From the NCBI GenBank assembly GCA_031459855.1, contig JAVKHP010000001.1, positions 912,059-976,058 of the forward strand: DNA of 64,000 bases, read 5' to 3'. This document shows positions 56,430 to 63,921 of this stretch, one piece after another; the stretch's first letter is position 1; each line of letters opens with the position of its first letter. A program made the position numbers and the translations under genes. Source of the DNA: Armatimonadota bacterium. Its GTDB lineage: Bacteria; Sysuimicrobiota; Sysuimicrobiia; Sysuimicrobiales; Humicultoraceae. The notes beneath the pieces were generated by a model. The model ran no database searches, was not told the origin of the DNA, and saw nothing but the letters and a program-made list of their open reading frames with translations.

Positions 56430-56806
56430 TTTTGCTATCGCTTCCTGTCACTCGTGCACCGGGACGTCCGCGCCCGGAACGCCGAAACGGCCCGTCATTC
56501 CCTGCGTCCAGGTCTGGACCCCTGCGCAGTTGGGCATGCCCAATACGGTGCCTCCGGCATCCCGGAGCCGGAGGGTGGTCCAGCAGCGACCACGACCGCG
56601 ACAGGCAGACCCAAGGTACTCCAGGCACGCGGTGCCATGGGACCGGCCTGCGCGGATGCGCCGGCGGCCGCTAGGCCGGGGTGCCGACGCGGGTGATGTG
56701 ATGGCCCACCCAGCAACGCAGGTGGAGCAGCGGCGGGGCGGGCTGTGTTGTGTCGCCATCGCAAACGAGCGAGGCGCTCTCGCACCTCTCACCAGGAGGA
56801 AGCGCT
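56430..56806. other. Gene-free spacer, possible structured leader of the secreted protein gene
   Basis: About 375 bp. It contains an 8-bp stem hairpin (56551-56558 with 56567-56574) and other GC-rich inverted segments up to 56680. No known riboswitch class recognised. No coding region supported. Confidence 0.4.
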
Positions 56807-58030
56807 ATGCACAAACGGGAACCACGTAGGCTCACGGTGAGCATGGAACTGCTCGTCCTCGCTCTAGGAGCCATGTTGGTCTTTGCGCGTGCTCCGCTCA
56901 CCGGGCAGGCGTGGGGTGCCGCCGCCAACTGGCGCCAGAGCCCGGGCACGCTCACCGGACGGGTCGTCGACGCCATCTCCCGCACCGGCCTCCCTGCTGT
57001 TGTCTTCACCAAGGGAAACATGACCTGGGCAGGACAAACCGATGGCAGCGGCTACTATACGACGCAGCTGCCACCGGGCAGCTACTCCGTCATCGCCAGT
57101 CGCTCAGGATACAAGGAGGAAAAGAAGCAAACGCTCGTCAAGGGCGGCGCGACGACGCGGGTGGATTTCGCGCTCCAGCCGTTGAGTACCGCGATCGCGC
57201 CGAGTCCGACGCCCACGCCCACACCGACGTCAGCACCCACGCCGGCGTCCGACGAGATCGCCCAGTTGATCTACGAGTGGTTCGGCCCGCCGTTCCGCTC
57301 CGGGCTGGAGTACGGCTGGGGGCCGCCGTGGGGCCAGCATGAAGCCCGCCTGGCCACCAACCCGTCGTGGGACTGGACCGAAGGCGCCCGGCCAGCCCAG
57401 TGGGCGACCCCGCCGCCCGGGTACACCGCGATGAGCGGGTGGGGGCAGGTCGTGGAGGCCGCCGTCGGCATCGGCCCGACCAGGAACTTCCGCGTGCACG
57501 TTCGGTGGAACCGGCTCTACGCGTTCGTCAACGGGGTGTGGATCCTTGTGGAGTCCACCGAGCAGTACGGCATTCAGGGCGGGTGGTTTCGCACCAGCGA
57601 CTTCTCCGCTGCCAGCGGCTACGTCAGCTGGCGGCGGGAGGCCGAGGGGTTCTCGGTCTCCTGGCAATCCGCACCGCCTGGCACGTTGCTCCACTGGTGG
57701 ATCAACTCCTGGCCGCACCCCCTGATTCCGGCGGGCGCGACGGCCTTCTACGCGGTGGCGCAGATGCGGCTCATCCCCGACACCGACCCGGGCGCAGACC
57801 TGACGGCGGTCCAGGTCTACGGCGCCGTCGGCAACGACTGGTGGGACTCGCCGACGGGTCGTGGCGGGCCGGGGACGGGGATCCCACGGCACAAGCGCCT
57901 GACCACCCAGTGGAAGACCTTTGCGTCGGCCACGATCCCTGTCCCCGCACCGCCCAAGTACGACCCGAGCTACGACTACAACACCGCCGTGCGATCCTTC
58001 CTGCAACTGCCGCCGCTGTTCTACTACTGA
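56807..58030 (+). CDS. Secreted protein with carboxypeptidase regulatory-like domain and unknown C-terminal domain
   Basis: 407 residues from ATG 56807 (AGGAGGAAG). Signal segment MELLVLALGAMLVFA. Residues about 45-120 (GTLTGRVVDAISRTGLPAVVF, then TDGSGYYTTQLPPGSYSVIASRSGY) form a CarboxypepD_reg beta-sandwich. A Pro/Thr linker (PSPTPTPTPTSAPTPA) leads to about 260 Trp- and Tyr-rich residues without any family I recognise, ending FLQLPPLFYY. Probably exported and surface-associated. Codon use looks native. Confidence 0.75.
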   Translation: MHKREPRRLTVSMELLVLALGAMLVFARAPLTGQAWGAAANWRQSPGTLTGRVVDAISRTGLPAVVFTKGNMTWAGQTDGSGYYTTQLPPGSYSVIASRSGYKEEKKQTLVKGGATTRVDFALQPLSTAIAPSPTPTPTPTSAPTPASDEIAQLIYEWFGPPFRSGLEYGWGPPWGQHEARLATNPSWDWTEGARPAQWATPPPGYTAMSGWGQVVEAAVGIGPTRNFRVHVRWNRLYAFVNGVWILVESTEQYGIQGGWFRTSDFSAASGYVSWRREAEGFSVSWQSAPPGTLLHWWINSWPHPLIPAGATAFYAVAQMRLIPDTDPGADLTAVQVYGAVGNDWWDSPTGRGGPGTGIPRHKRLTTQWKTFASATIPVPAPPKYDPSYDYNTAVRSFLQLPPLFYY

Positions 58031-58150: not shown

Positions 58151-58435
58151 CTACTCCTGCATCCTGACCAGACCGCACCGCGCGAGATCCGCTACGAAGG
58201 CCTGCACGTCGACGACGAACGACGCCGGCGCATCCACCACGCGCTTGCGCAGTTCCTCCAGAACCTCGTCCAACGTGCGCGTGCCGTCGAGCAGGGTCCA
58301 GACGATTGCCCCCACCTCGTTCAGTCCGTAGTAGGCGCCCGACTCGAGATTGAGCAGAACGGCCCCTTCGCCCTCCGAGAGCTCTCGATGGACGACTCTG
58401 GGGTGCCTGTGGATCCGGACGTTCGTCGGCACCAT
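58151..58435 (-). CDS. PqqD-like RiPP recognition element (lasso B1-type)
   Basis: 94 residues from ATG 58435 (GGAGGGAG eight bases upstream; a GTG at 58456 is less likely). RVVHRELSEGEGAVLLNLESGAYYGLNEVGAIVWTLLDGTRTLDEVLEEL is the PqqD winged-helix fold, which binds leader peptides. In lasso peptide systems a stand-alone PqqD-like B1 protein presents the precursor leader to the B2 protease. Last gene of the precursor-exporter operon; 2-3 bp gap after the permease runs the other way (permease upstream). PQQ synthesis is unlikely because no PqqA, C or E is near. Confidence 0.88.
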   Translation of the reverse strand: MVPTNVRIHRHPRVVHRELSEGEGAVLLNLESGAYYGLNEVGAIVWTLLDGTRTLDEVLEELRKRVVDAPASFVVDVQAFVADLARCGLVRMQE

Positions 58436-58459
58436 GACTGCATCTCCCTCCGGCACAGG

Positions 58460-59308
58460 TCAGTACTGCCCCAGCGTGCCGGTGCGCAGCTCGCTCCGTA
58501 GGGCCAGCCGGAAGAGCCAGACGCCGCCCGCGAGGGCCAGGAGCGAGGTGGGTGCAAGCACCAGGAGCGCTGGGGTGACCGCAGCCCAGCTGCCGCCGCC
58601 GAGCAACGCCTCCCGGGTGGCATCGAGCGCGACGGCCACAGGGTTGCGGGCGGCGAACCCGGCTACCCACCCGGGCAGGAGCTCCCGGGGGAAGTAGGCG
58701 CCCGACCCGACCGCCAGGCCGTACCCTACGAGACCGACCACCGCCGGTACCCGCCGAAATCGCAGCACCGCAGCGGCGCTCGCAGCGCCCAGGCCACCGG
58801 CGAAGGGCACGAACAGGGCGAAGACGGCGGCCGCGGGCACGATGCCGCTCAGATGCACCTCCACGCCGAAGAGCACCGCCGCCACGACCAGGAACACCGT
58901 GATCTGCACCGGCAGGTAGAGGAGGTCGTAGGCCACGAGTCCCACGAGGATAGTCAGCTCCGAAGTGGGCGTCACCAGCAGCGACTCCAGCGTGCCGAGG
59001 AGTTGCTCATTGCGCAGGGCCGAGCCCACACGGCTCAACCCCAACTGCAGTAACGCGCTGATCGCGATACCCACCACCACGAACGCGAGGTACGTGGGAC
59101 GCGCCTCCCCGACCACGGGGACCCGGGCCGGATCGACGAGCCTCGCCACGAACGAAAAGACGACGACCTGCGCGATGAGATTGATCAGGTCGGAGACGAA
59201 CGCCAGCCGATAGCTCAACGCCGTGAGCAGGTCGCGACGCAGGAAGGCTGCCAGCTTGCCTACTTCCTGCCCCACGGCGCCCCAGCCGTGTTCGCGCCCC
59301 GCGATCAT
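58460..59308 (-). CDS. ABC-2 type exporter permease
   Basis: 282 residues with six hydrophobic segments. LSYRLAFVSDLINLIAQVVVFSFVARLVDP, then LRNEQLLGTLESLLVTPTSELTILVG (the ABC-2 cytoplasmic signature) and YFPRELLPGWVAGFAARNPVAVALDATRE. Forms a half-exporter with the ATPase encoded upstream (ATGA overlap). In this context the likely cargo is the mature peptide, giving export and self-protection. Confidence 0.88.
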   Translation of the reverse strand: MIAGREHGWGAVGQEVGKLAAFLRRDLLTALSYRLAFVSDLINLIAQVVVFSFVARLVDPARVPVVGEARPTYLAFVVVGIAISALLQLGLSRVGSALRNEQLLGTLESLLVTPTSELTILVGLVAYDLLYLPVQITVFLVVAAVLFGVEVHLSGIVPAAAVFALFVPFAGGLGAASAAAVLRFRRVPAVVGLVGYGLAVGSGAYFPRELLPGWVAGFAARNPVAVALDATREALLGGGSWAAVTPALLVLAPTSLLALAGGVWLFRLALRSELRTGTLGQY

Positions 59309-60330
59309 CGGTCCGTCGCCTCATGCATCGTCGATCCACTGCCTCGTGCACCGCCCGTGAGCCGGAGAAACGCCTCCTCGAGCCCCGGGCGTTCCTCGCG
59401 ACAGCTCAACACGTGAAAGCGGGCAGCACTGAGCGCCGCCAGCGCATCCCCCAGGACGGCGCCATTGTGCATGGTCAGCACGTAGTCTCCCGCGTCCTGC
59501 CCGCCCGCCCGTGCAATGGTCCCGTGGCGGCCGAGGGCCGCCTGGAGCTCCGCTGCCGACGGATGATTGCCACCCCGACCGTTCGTGACCCGGAGCACGT
59601 ACCGATCGGGTACCGTCTGCGCCAGCAGCTGCGGCACGGTGCCGCTGAACCTGACCATGCCCCGGTGGAGCAGCGTGACCGTGTGCGCGAAACCGCGGAT
59701 CTCGTCCACCCGCTGGGTGGCCCAGAGGACTGCCGCACCCTGGCGAGCGGCCGTGGCGACGAGTTCCCGTACCGTCCGACTGGCCTCCGGGTCGAGGTCG
59801 TGCGTGGCCTCGTCGATCAGCAGCACGGGAGGATTCGGGAGCAATGCCCGAGCAATGGCCAGTTTCTTCTGCATCCCGTGCGAGTAGGCCGCGACCCGCA
59901 GGTGGGCGACCCCGTCGAGTCCCACCTCTGCCAGCCTCTGCAGAGCCCGGGTCCGCGCCTCCCCGACGGTCATGCCCCACAGCCGACCGAAGAAGATCAG
60001 GTTCTCGAGCCCGCTGAGCCTGAGGTAGAACGTGCGGTCGCCCCCCGGCACGAAGCCGACCCACCGGCGAGCGGCACGCGGTGCCTCGGTGACCGGCCGC
60101 CCCATCAGTCGCACAGCCCCTGTTGTAGGCGTCAACAGGCCACAGAGGATCCGCAGCAGGGTGGTCTTCCCTGCACCATTTGGCCCGAGCACCGCGTGGA
60201 TCTCGCCCGCGGCGACCCCGAGGGAAACGTCCGACAACACCACCGCGGCGCCGTAGCGGTGACAAACACCAGAAACCTCCGCGGCATATCCCGCACCGCG
60301 GAGGTTCACGGTCTCCCTGTCTTCGTACAA
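59305..60330 (-). CDS. ABC exporter ATPase of the peptide cluster
   Basis: 341 residues from TTG 60330 (GTG 60309 is an alternative). Walker A GPNGAGKTT, Q-loop region FVPGGDRTFYLRLSGLENL, signature YSHGMQKKLAIARAL in place of LSGGQ, Walker B VLLIDEATHDLD. A C-terminal extension of about 100 residues follows the ATPase core, as in CcmA/DrrA-type exporters. Starts 44 bp after the precursor gene. Confidence 0.88.
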   Translation of the reverse strand: MYEDRETVNLRGAGYAAEVSGVCHRYGAAVVLSDVSLGVAAGEIHAVLGPNGAGKTTLLRILCGLLTPTTGAVRLMGRPVTEAPRAARRWVGFVPGGDRTFYLRLSGLENLIFFGRLWGMTVGEARTRALQRLAEVGLDGVAHLRVAAYSHGMQKKLAIARALLPNPPVLLIDEATHDLDPEASRTVRELVATAARQGAAVLWATQRVDEIRGFAHTVTLLHRGMVRFSGTVPQLLAQTVPDRYVLRVTNGRGGNHPSAAELQAALGRHGTIARAGGQDAGDYVLTMHNGAVLGDALAALSAARFHVLSCREERPGLEEAFLRLTGGARGSGSTMHEATDR

Positions 60331-60354: not shown

Positions 60355-60378
60355 CTTGTCCCTACTACTTGTCCCTAC
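60355..60378. repeat. 13-bp tandem repeat between precursor and exporter genes
   Basis: CTTGTCCCTAC occurs at 60355-60365 and 60368-60378. The second copy contains the precursor stop codon. On the transcript it reads GTAGGGACAAG twice, just before the ATPase start. It might set the ratio of peptide to exporter, but this is speculation. Confidence 0.6.
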
Positions 60379-60581
60379 GACCTACCCACACATCCTTCCT
60401 TGGTTGTTCCCGGAAAGTCCAACCCCGAACCGCCGGACCGCTCGTTGTGCTGGTCGCAGTGCCAGATGTCCGTCCCGCCCTTGATCGTCGCTCCCACTGC
60501 GAACGTGTGGCGAGCGATCGATCCGAGTTCCATGAGCTCCGGCGGCTTGTACGTCACGAGACGCTCAAACGCTGGCCCCAT
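60375..60581 (-). CDS. Lasso-type RiPP precursor peptide
   Basis: 68 residues from ATG 60581 with a strong ribosome site (AGGAGGG). The leader has Tyr11, Pro14, Leu16, Gly20 and Thr26, a complete YxxPxLxxxGxxxxxT recognition motif for B1-type elements (GSIARHTF at 20-27). The remainder carries Asp38, Trp40, His41, Cys42, Asp43, Glu47 and a Gly/Ser stretch, then Cys64. If cut after residue 27 there is no Asp/Glu at ring positions 7-9. Rings of 8-9 residues would fit Gly30-Asp38, Gly35-Asp43 or Gly36-Asp43. First gene of the minus operon, divergent from the cyclase gene. Confidence 0.85.
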   Translation of the reverse strand: MGPAFERLVTYKPPELMELGSIARHTFAVGATIKGGTDIWHCDQHNERSGGSGLDFPGTTKEGCVGRS

Positions 60582-60739: not shown

Positions 60740-62536
60740 ATGGGCGCCATTGCGGCGGTCTTCTCTCCGGGCAGGCACGTCGAGGCCGCCGTTCCCCGGC
60801 GGATGCTGGCAGCCTCTCCACACCGCGGGGCCGAAGCCCACGTCGTCTCCTATGGGGACACGGTGCTGGGTATCGCCATACGTCCAGACGATCGGGACGC
60901 GTGGGTCGCGCAGCGCGGCCCCCTGCTGGTCGGATTTGTCGGAACCCTGGACAACGCCGAAGAGTTAATAAAACTCTATAACATTGGGGTAAGCTTTAGC
61001 GCCCGAGCACACCCGGCCGACCTGGTAGCTGCGCTCTATCTGGCGCTGGGAGACAGCACTCCAGAAGTCCTCCGGGGAGCCTTCGCCTGCATCGTCACGG
61101 ACGGCACCAGGTTCGTGGCCTTCCGGGACCACCTGGGCCTTGGCACCCTGTTCTACCGGGAGGACGCGCAGGGGCTGTTCGTAGCCACCGAGGCCAAGCA
61201 GGTCGCGATCGGAGCCGGCATCTCCCTGCAGCCCGACCTCGAGGTCCTCGAGCGGATGTTCTACAACCTGTCGTCGGGCGACGCGTTGTCCTGCGCCCTC
61301 AAGGGCGTGCACCGCCTGCCCAAGGCCTCGATCCTCCGCGCCATCCCAGGCAAGCCGACCGTCGTCGCACGCTATTGGGCTCCGGAGCGCCTGCTCGAGA
61401 CCGCCCGGCTCTCCCTCGACGACATCCGAGCCCGCTTCGAAGAACTGATGGATCGTGCCGTGACCCGCGCCATGGCCGGCACACCTGTGTTGTCGCTCAG
61501 CGGCGGCATCGACTCGACAGCCGTCGCGGCCTTTGCGGCACCGGCGCATCTCCGGCTCACAGGCAGGCCCCTGCCGGCGATCACCCAGGTCTTCCCCGAC
61601 CATCCGACCGTGGACGAACGCCGGTACACGGAGATGGTGGCCGACTATCTGGGGATCACCTTGCACACCTACACGTCGGCAGTGGGGCACCTCGACGATC
61701 TCGACCACTGGGTGCGCCTCGTCGACGGCCCCCCGCTTGCGCTGTTACCCGAGATCGCGTACCAGCAACGGCTGGTGCGCAGGTTGGGATTCCGGACGGT
61801 CCTGACGGGCGAGTTCGGAGAGTTCGTCTACGACATGCGCACTGCCCTCGTCACCCACCTGGCGGCCAAGAAGCGCTACGCGGCGCTATGGCGGATCTTC
61901 CGTACGTGGCCGGCTGACGGCATGTTGCGGGCACAGCTGGCCCGTGACGTCCTCGCGGCTTTCGTCCCTCTTCCCCTTGCAGTGGCGTACCGGCGCCTCG
62001 TCCGGAGGCGCGGCAACCCCATGCTGCCCGACTGGATAGACCGCCGTCTGGGCAGCCGGGCGTTCTACCATCACCACCTCAACACTCCACCGGGGCGCCT
62101 GTGGTCGGAAGCGCAGCTGGTGGCGTTCACCGAACCGAGCATCGGCATGGAATCGCTGGAAATCTGCGGGGCGTTCCACGGCGTCCGGACGCGCCAGCCG
62201 CTGGCGGACGTGGACCTTTGGGAGTTCTTCCTCTCCCTCCCCGCGGAAGTGAAGTACCCCGAGAGGCTCTCCAAAGCCCTGGTGCGGTCACTGCTGCGGG
62301 GTAGACTCCCCGACGCCGTGCTGGCCCGCAGGGACAAGACCGTCTTCGACGAGTTCGCCGTCGCCAAGACAGACTACACGGCGCTGCGACGGTGGCTGCT
62401 GAACGGCTCGTATCGCATGCCGGGAGTGGACTACGCCCGGCTGCAGGCACAACTGGACCGTCAGGACTTCGCGCTGCGGGACGTCGTGTGGGCCAACGAC
62501 CTGGCGGCAATCCACGCGTTCGTGAGCCTCTGGTGA
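60740..62536 (+). CDS. Asparagine synthetase-like lasso cyclase (C protein)
   Basis: 598 residues. The N-terminal half has the class II amidotransferase fold (GFVGTLDNAEELI, FRDHLGLGTLFYRED, FVATEAKQVAI), but the nucleophile Cys2 is replaced (MGAIAAVF), so glutamine cannot be used. The synthetase half has the PP-loop SLSGGIDSTAVAAFA (254-260) and TGEFGEFVYD. Loss of Cys2 is the hallmark of lasso cyclases, which adenylate an Asp/Glu side chain and close the macrolactam. Start overlaps nothing; see the promoter entry. Four bases separate it from the next gene. Confidence 0.9.
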   Translation: MGAIAAVFSPGRHVEAAVPRRMLAASPHRGAEAHVVSYGDTVLGIAIRPDDRDAWVAQRGPLLVGFVGTLDNAEELIKLYNIGVSFSARAHPADLVAALYLALGDSTPEVLRGAFACIVTDGTRFVAFRDHLGLGTLFYREDAQGLFVATEAKQVAIGAGISLQPDLEVLERMFYNLSSGDALSCALKGVHRLPKASILRAIPGKPTVVARYWAPERLLETARLSLDDIRARFEELMDRAVTRAMAGTPVLSLSGGIDSTAVAAFAAPAHLRLTGRPLPAITQVFPDHPTVDERRYTEMVADYLGITLHTYTSAVGHLDDLDHWVRLVDGPPLALLPEIAYQQRLVRRLGFRTVLTGEFGEFVYDMRTALVTHLAAKKRYAALWRIFRTWPADGMLRAQLARDVLAAFVPLPLAVAYRRLVRRRGNPMLPDWIDRRLGSRAFYHHHLNTPPGRLWSEAQLVAFTEPSIGMESLEICGAFHGVRTRQPLADVDLWEFFLSLPAEVKYPERLSKALVRSLLRGRLPDAVLARRDKTVFDEFAVAKTDYTALRRWLLNGSYRMPGVDYARLQAQLDRQDFALRDVVWANDLAAIHAFVSLW

Positions 62537-62540
62537 ACGC

Positions 62541-63473
62541 ATGCCCGACGTATCACCGCACGGGTGGAAGGAAACGACCGGCACCTGCTACGGGCTGCAG
62601 GTCGCGTCGTCGTTACCGTTCGCCTACCTGCGCGCCGGGGCCGGAATCCCGCTGGACGTGGCAGTCGGCCCGTCGCCGCCCATACCCCCGGGCGCCCGCC
62701 TCCTCCGGGAGTGGCCGGCGCGGCCGGGGCGCACGCTGTTAGCCCGCCTGTACCAGGATGGCACGCGCTACCTGTTCTGGAACGAACTCGCGGAGGTCTT
62801 CGTGGTGGAACCCGCCACGCTCCGGGTGACGGTGCCCGACATGGACCCGGTCCGCCGCGAGGACATCCTCTGGGGCATCCCCGCGAGCCTGTGCCTGCTA
62901 CACCTGGGGCACCTACCGCTCCACGCCGCAGCGGTGGAGGTCGACGGTGGAGCGGTCCTCTTTGCCGCGCCGGGCGGATTTGGGAAGACCACGCTGGCCG
63001 CAGCGTTCCACGCGGCCGGGCATCGTGTGCTCTCGGAGGACATTGCCTGCGTGACGACGCAGGCATCGCCGGCCGTGATCCCAGGTCCCGCCAGCCTGCG
63101 TCTTCGGCCGGACGTGGCCGACCACCTGGCTCTCCCGGGCGTCCAGGTCGTCAGGCGCACCGACGTCCGGATCAGCCTGGCGCTCGACCGAGCCTGCCGC
63201 GGGCGGTGCGACCCCGTGCCCATCAGGGCGGTCGTCTTCCTGCGGGTCGCACGCGACATCGCCGTGACCCGCGTACGGGTCACCGACGCCATCCCGGACC
63301 TGTGGACGCTGAGCCAGTCCTACGTCGACGATGCCGAGCACGCCCGGTGCTTCAGACATGTCGTTGACCTGGCCCGCAGCGTCCCCCTGTGGAACGTGTA
63401 CCGGCCCCTGCGGTTCGATGCACTCCACGGCACGATCGAGCGGATCCTGTCGGTCTGCCTGGCCAATGTCTGA
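62541..63473 (+). CDS. HPr kinase-like protein of the RiPP cluster
   Basis: 310 residues. P-loop APGGFGKTT at 143-151 preceded by LPLHAAAVEVDGGAVLF, then RVLSEDIACV, the pattern of HprK-like kinases found in many lasso clusters (e.g. paeninodin-type), where such kinases phosphorylate the precursor C-terminal residue. Here the precursor ends in Ser, a possible target. The N-terminal 110 residues form a beta-rich region without a recognised name. Confidence 0.85.
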   Translation: MPDVSPHGWKETTGTCYGLQVASSLPFAYLRAGAGIPLDVAVGPSPPIPPGARLLREWPARPGRTLLARLYQDGTRYLFWNELAEVFVVEPATLRVTVPDMDPVRREDILWGIPASLCLLHLGHLPLHAAAVEVDGGAVLFAAPGGFGKTTLAAAFHAAGHRVLSEDIACVTTQASPAVIPGPASLRLRPDVADHLALPGVQVVRRTDVRISLALDRACRGRCDPVPIRAVVFLRVARDIAVTRVRVTDAIPDLWTLSQSYVDDAEHARCFRHVVDLARSVPLWNVYRPLRFDALHGTIERILSVCLANV

Positions 63474-63921
63474 CCGTCGCGCGCGGCTCTCGCTCGCCGA
63501 CAAGACCCGCCTGGCCGCGCGCGTCTGGGGCGCGTACGTCCTCGTCCGACTGCAGGTGCACCGGTGCCCCTTGCCCGACCTGGTCGCACGTCTCGGCACC
63601 CGGTCAGGCCCGGTGCGCCATCGGTACGCGCCGGCATCACTGTCTCGAGCGGTGCATCGTGTCTTGGGCATGCGCCTCACCGAGCAGACCTGTCTCGTAC
63701 GCGCACTGGTCCTGTACCGGCTCCTGCGGGCCCAAGGGGACGATGCCGAGCTGGTGATCGGACTTCCGCCGCGTCCGGTCGACCACAAGGCCCACGCGTG
63801 GGTGGAGCTAAACGGCGTCGACCTGGGCCCGCCCCCGGGGCGGGGCGCATATGAGCCCCTGGCGCGATACCCCGCGCGCCCGGTCACGACGGTGTCCGAC
63901 CAACTCAAAAGAGCGCCTTGA
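63466..63921 (+). CDS. Transglutaminase-like lasso leader peptidase (B2 protein)
   Basis: 151 residues from ATG 63466, overlapping the kinase gene by 8 bp. Cys76 (EQTCLVRALVLYRLLRAQG), His110 (KAHAWVELNG) and Asp119 form the Cys-His-Asp triad of the Transglut_core3 family that includes McjB C-terminal halves and stand-alone B2 proteins. It cuts off the leader when it is presented by B1, which is encoded in the divergent operon. Confidence 0.92.
   Translation: MSDRRARLSLADKTRLAARVWGAYVLVRLQVHRCPLPDLVARLGTRSGPVRHRYAPASLSRAVHRVLGMRLTEQTCLVRALVLYRLLRAQGDDAELVIGLPPRPVDHKAHAWVELNGVDLGPPPGRGAYEPLARYPARPVTTVSDQLKRAP

Follow-up and report, generated by a model that had tools for sequence, protein, structure and literature searches.

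Where does the core of a lasso-type precursor begin when its leader conforms to the rules and the residues that follow do not? Genome-mining tools place lasso cores by a Thr at position –2 and an acid at core position 7–9; the latter feature of lasso peptides is set out in excerpts from PMC9266682. The question is raised by a short open reading frame in the window, by which we mean the whole 64,000-nucleotide stretch of DNA that was analyzed. The frame is preceded, directly 5′ of its ATG, by a run resembling a ribosome-binding site (GAGGAGG) and encodes MGPAFERLVTYKPPELMELGSIARHTF (leader) followed by AVGATIK (spacer), GGTDIWHCD (proposed ring), and QHNERSGGSGLDFPGTTKEGCVGRS (tail). As had been claimed in a sequence-only reading of the locus, the leader pattern YxxPxLxxxGxxxxxT is complete, with an exact fit (Y11-x2-P14-x-L16-x3-G20-x5-T26). 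That reading had also pointed out that a core placed by the Thr(–2) rule, here a cut two residues past the Thr counted inclusively (that is, after Phe27), lacks Asp and Glu at positions 7–9. Indeed, the core that starts AVGATIKGG has acids at positions 11, 16, 20, 28, and 35 only, and the 7–9 rule therefore fails. Such a lack is not rare by shuffling (18% for all four cores described below, jointly); the oddity, in a cluster equipped with a cyclase, is functional rather than statistical.

The coordinates of the precursor and of the genes around it are collected in Table 1. The genes for B1, the two ABC proteins, and the precursor are on the minus strand and those for the cyclase, the HprK-like kinase, and B2 are on the plus strand, and the window holds the B1 RRE, the B2 peptidase, and the asparagine-synthetase-like cyclase of a split-B lasso cluster. 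The cyclase is a weak match to the lasso model NF033535 (125 bits, as compared to a cut-off of 525). The kinase retains its His, its GKT, and its acidic residues, spaced as has been reported for BsfK, with Glu in place of the first Asp of the pair. The profile scores for B2 (NF033537 and PF13471) were taken on a longer open reading frame (63331–63921), and Cys76 and His110 of B2 are invariant in all four genomes that we compared. No second protease was found among the window genes tested by Pfam, and the window-side open reading frames run against Pfam gave no match to the NTP transferase family PF14907. Downstream of the cluster are open reading frames that by eye are glycosyltransferase-like and sugar-transferase-like, a polysaccharide setting. 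Adjoining the cluster, at 56750–58030 on the plus strand, is a gene for a 426-residue protein with a carboxypeptidase-regulatory-like domain.

Table 1. Features of the precursor and of its gene cluster, in window coordinates
Feature	Position	Strand	Basis
Precursor peptide A, 68 aa	60375..60581	–	Translation from ATG; leader common to four genomes
Leader, canonical register, Met1–Phe27 (Tyr11, Pro14, Leu16, Gly20, Thr26)	60501..60581	–	Tyr–Thr = 15 in 4/4 precursors
Spacer Ala28–Lys34, from the end of the leader to the proposed core, with invariant Lys34	60480..60500	–	Thr–Lys distances 8, 8, 12, 12
Proposed ring, 9 residues, Gly35–Asp43 (predicted)	60453..60479	–	K-x8-D in 3, K-x7-D in 1
Tail Gln44–Ser68; last residue Ser, a possible phospho-acceptor (predicted)	60378..60452	–	C-terminal Ser/Thr in 3/4 precursors
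B1, PqqD-like RRE	58151..58456	–	PF05402 6e-17; TbiB1 5v1u 6.5e-6
ABC-2 type permease	58460..59308	–	PF01061
ABC transporter ATPase	59305..60330	–	PF00005
C, asparagine-synthetase-like macrolactam cyclase	60740..62536	+	PF00733; NF033535 2.6e-36
HprK-like peptide kinase	62541..63473	+	TIGR04352 4.6e-13, under cut-off; conserved His, GKT, Glu-Asp motif
B2, transglutaminase-like leader peptidase, 151 aa	63466..63921	+	NF033537 52.5 bits (cut-off 33), PF13471

Three further genomes, G037 and G013 from the same order and G762 from another phylum, also encode a cyclase of the same clade, a kinase, and a B2 protein. G037 was reached by a search with the precursor, G013 was reached from the precursor of G037, and G762 was found by way of its cyclase, the same contig encoding a precursor, MRYERPQIADLGSIAAHTF, that shares the leader, along with an NTP transferase, B1, B2, and a protein resembling the kinase. 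Because the leader turns up again in these three genomes, next to enzymes of the same types, the precursor gene is more than a chance reading frame, and its recurrence in four genomes rules out a frame artefact. B1 is present in the window, G013, and G762 and was not found in G037, where the cluster is divided between two contigs; the NTP transferase (PF14907) was found in G013, G037, and G762. Beside the first cluster of G762 and near the contig end (L083:12126–14236) are a second B2-like protein (PF13471, 90 bits), a second NTP transferase (PF14907), and, by eye, an RRE-like open reading frame, perhaps a second peptide system.

Searches for relatives used the precursor, B2, and the cyclase. 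The search with precursor P0002 matched 44 of 147 genomes at E ≤1, and among 30 loci then screened by leader motif only the window and G037 passed. A search of 43 genomes matched eight at E ≤0.5, and the motif screen of seven loci (L033, the window's own place, being left out) retained G037 and G013. A leader-motif match at L038 was dropped as chance. In 386 genomes seven matched at E ≤0.05, four of which (E 0.02–0.04) were left out of the comparison; precursor searches also covered sets of one and of two genomes, with no match in the latter. The B2 family scored above the Pfam cut-off in four of 43 genomes of the phylum (the window's own, G037, G013, and G038); the strong PF13471 match in G038 (L066, 63.6 bits) was set aside, as no cyclase or precursor was seen around the B2-like gene. 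For the cyclase (E limits 1e-25 or 1e-30), the only strong matches among 386 relatives were in the window's own genome, G013 (43%), and G037 (46–47%, in two pieces), with a distant one in G192. G762 was the one match in 249 genomes of another phylum (41%, 4e-107) and reappeared in 228 genomes of an overlapping class; a set of 195 genomes yielded the distant G578, and sets of 80 and of five genomes yielded no homolog. Plasmids gave no match to P0002, P0003, or B2, and among the 30 of 55 plasmid records listed for the cyclase the matches were below 30%. No relative was found by protein in the viral contigs, where a single pattern match was ascribed to chance, its frame being antisense to a long open reading frame.

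What do the four precursors, the whole basis of the comparison, have in common? In each of them the distance from Tyr to Thr in the YxxPx[L/V/I] leader is 15 residues and Phe follows directly after the Thr; in each the 7–9 rule counted from that Phe is broken; and in each the Phe is followed by a spacer of six or ten residues and then by a Lys. The distance from Thr to Lys is eight in the window and G037 and twelve in G013 and G762. Counted from the residue after the Lys, an Asp falls at position 9 in three precursors and at position 8 in G762. The cores that would begin there are 34, 21, 21, and 38 residues long (window, G037, G013, and G762, respectively), and the peptide ends in Ser in two cases (window and G037), in Thr in G013, and in Asn in G762.

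The sequence-only reading had named an unconserved C-terminal half as a ground for its refutation. Within the order that outcome did not arise, although this half is conserved only to a moderate extent: an Asp, a Glu, and a Ser align without gaps after the Lys in all three precursors (D-x3-E-x-S). The fourth core is ambiguous, in that G762 carries K-x7-D-x3-E-x-S and MAFFT, given all four sequences, prefers another alignment there, and we therefore do not count the motif in G762, where D-x3-E-x-S may have arisen by chance, as established. (The x8 form was derived from the first three precursors, and x7 was admitted once G762 had been seen.) In 200,000 shuffles of the G762 core, K-x7/x8-D-x3-E-x-S arose in 90, D-x3-E-x-S in 2,713, and K-x7..8-[DE] in 51,192. 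For the three-core block, whose length was picked after looking, the score was reached in 126 of 3,000 shuffles and the number of invariant columns in 54. Any K-x7..8-D was present in all four cores in 45 of 20,000 joint shuffles, and the product of the shuffle frequencies for a first Lys with Asp at +8/+9 was 7e-4, a figure that makes no correction for which residue was chosen or for common descent. The actual significance is lower, because the sequences are related and because Gly, like Lys, has an Asp at that distance in all four precursors.

The extra stretch between the cutting signal and the predicted ring in these relatives implies either that the leader is cut further along or that the ring is of a new kind, the two outcomes entertained in the sequence-only reading, and the four-sequence alignment favors the former while the latter survives as a rival. 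Shifted cuts had been put forward before Gly30, Gly35, or Gly36, and the arithmetic is right (Asp38 at position 9 in the first case, and Asp43 at position 9 or 8 in the others). The alignment speaks for Gly35, next to the invariant Lys34 and with an Asp nine residues on in three precursors and eight in one, and not for Gly36 or for Gly30; the cut before Gly30 lacks support, since that Gly and its Asp are not common to the relatives. Nor did the segment WHCDxHxExS hold up as a set of ligands or a metal site: its His and Cys positions do not align, Trp40 and Cys42 have no fixed counterpart, and His45 is Phe in two relatives.

We therefore lean slightly, at little better than even confidence, to a predicted lasso peptide with a core that starts after Lys34 and a ring of Gly35–Asp43. 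It is the simplest account. Ring sizes stay normal, and it explains a variable spacer (Thr–Lys of 8, 8, 12, and 12) next to a nearly constant Lys–Asp distance (9 or 8), in clusters in which the lasso genes are present and the leader, Thr-Phe, spacer, and Lys are shared by all four precursors. The gene content, the register of the leader, the invariant Lys, and the Lys–Asp spacing are observed; we infer the cut site, ring, threading, phosphorylation, and export. In members of the subfamily, seven or eleven residues would lie between the conserved Thr and a Lys with which the leader closes. B1 would, by analogy to its family, bind YxxPxL; B2 would leave Gly35 as the N-terminus; and the cyclase would join the Gly35 amine to Asp43, creating a nine-residue ring and a 25-residue tail. 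The kinase probably phosphorylates a Ser or a Thr, in the window peptide perhaps Ser68 at its C-terminus, and the ABC pair would export the product. Gly35 could be exposed by two possible routes: B2 may reach the farther bond, or it may cut at Phe27, with trimming to the Lys thereafter. The exact canonical Tyr–Thr distance and the Phe after Thr in all four precursors argue that B2 still cuts at Thr-Phe, and of the two routes they favor the one that opens with a cut at Phe27. Ile and Val at –2 are reported for some phosphorylated lasso precursors in excerpts from PMC10368454, and a cut after the Lys would place Ile at –2 in the window and Val in G037. The same cut would place Pro there in G013 and His in G762 and would give G013 a core beginning with Asp rather than Gly; these features, together with the score of the cyclase far under the NCBI lasso cut-off, count against displacement.

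The invariant Lys is explained as well or better if the leader is cut canonically after Phe27 and the cyclase joins the side-chain amine of Lys34 to Asp43 (or Glu47), yielding a side-chain lactam with an N-terminal extension. This is the main rival to a core at Gly35, and we consider it unlikely. Conservation of the Lys across two phyla seems stricter than a residue at –1 would call for, the leader register and Thr-Phe are canonical in all four precursors, and all four cores have K-x7..8-D; that spacing, however, also matches an ordinary lasso ring if the count starts one residue after the Lys, and a basic residue followed by Gly also closes the canonical leaders of two outgroup loci. To our knowledge, no lasso cyclase employs a Lys side chain, and a Lys lactam would be a new reaction for the enzyme family; a full-text literature search found none in titles or abstract openings. 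Were it correct, a lasso-type synthetase would be forming a graspetide-like bond, with the N-terminal amine no longer used, and lasso synthetases would be capable of making side-chain lactams and tailed macrocycles. The likeness to graspetides is confined to that bond, and no ATP-grasp ligase was found among eight window proteins by Pfam.

The canonical cut could also be followed by closure of an N-terminal ring that is unusually large (16, 16, 20, and 19 residues, the Asp included), in keeping with the leader register and with the downstream acids in all four precursors. Ring size would then differ by four residues within one cyclase clade, whereas the Lys–Asp distance differs by one, and we regard such a ring as very improbable. 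Rather improbable, too, is a linear, phosphorylated product of the kind known as linear polyphosphorylated peptides (LPPs), with the cyclase acting elsewhere or on another peptide. The LPP set of RRE, HprK-like kinase, and transporter is represented here, its NTP transferase was found in three of the four clusters, and, according to excerpts from PMC13381572, atypical clusters of this kind sit in capsule loci, recalling the polysaccharide-type surroundings of the window. Nevertheless, each of the four genomes has a cyclase and a B2 gene along with the precursor, no SpI or signal-peptidase match was found among eight window proteins by Pfam, and the leader motif given for LPPs in the same excerpts (YxxPxVLxHQxIxFETxxS) is absent from the window precursor.

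Returning to a core that begins after Lys34, the window feature would be a variant within known lasso clusters. Its closest counterparts are the phosphorylated lasso peptides of the paeninodin kind (A, B1, B2, C, HprK-like kinase, and NTP transferase), which it resembles in gene set, in a YxxPxL-type leader, in a kinase gene whose motif is intact at a score under the TIGR04352 cut-off, and in the C-terminal Ser of the window peptide. It differs from them in the seven or eleven extra residues from the leader Thr to the Lys before the proposed core; no NTP transferase was found among the window-side open reading frames tested, and paeninodin-like leaders of Bacillota have WxxP, according to excerpts from PMC13381572. 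BsfA and its relatives in the Bradymonadales share the kinase, the split B, and, if the cut is after Lys34, an atypical –2 residue (Ile or Val), yet BsfA keeps its Tyr at –17, whereas here the Tyr would be at –24, or at –28 in G013 and G762. Literature searches, which covered open-licence papers, turned up no title or abstract opening on precursors of this type. A subfamily that spans two phyla without obeying the rule would be overlooked or wrongly scored by mining tools. It also makes testable whether the cut is set by how far it lies from the leader bound to the RRE or by the residue that precedes the core.

Finally, a tree of nine cyclases united the four in one clade (support 100/99), with G578 as the nearest outside row (87/93, midpoint rooting). 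The precursors at three outgroup loci are canonical: T-R is followed by GGGLFFGAD in G578 and by GGGGSIEKD in G192, and I-Q by GTCGWGTE on a Paenibacillus plasmid, so that all three have an acid at 7–9 if the Ile of the last is counted as –2, and two of the three have a basic residue and then Gly at the start of the core. Given canonical precursors in the outgroup and a single clade for the four cyclases, the extra stretch seems to be an insertion acquired within lasso clusters. The precursor of G578 (GGGLFFGADVTNRVASPA; L085:7714–8073, minus strand), of canonical lasso type with a leader ending in VTR, lies near the cyclase closest to the four. That of G192 (QRYAAPRLIEYGDLTALTR GGGGSIEKDPTNKTAFSNHN; L080, around 553, minus strand) is in a locus that contains three asparagine-synthetase-like genes and RRE-like open reading frames.
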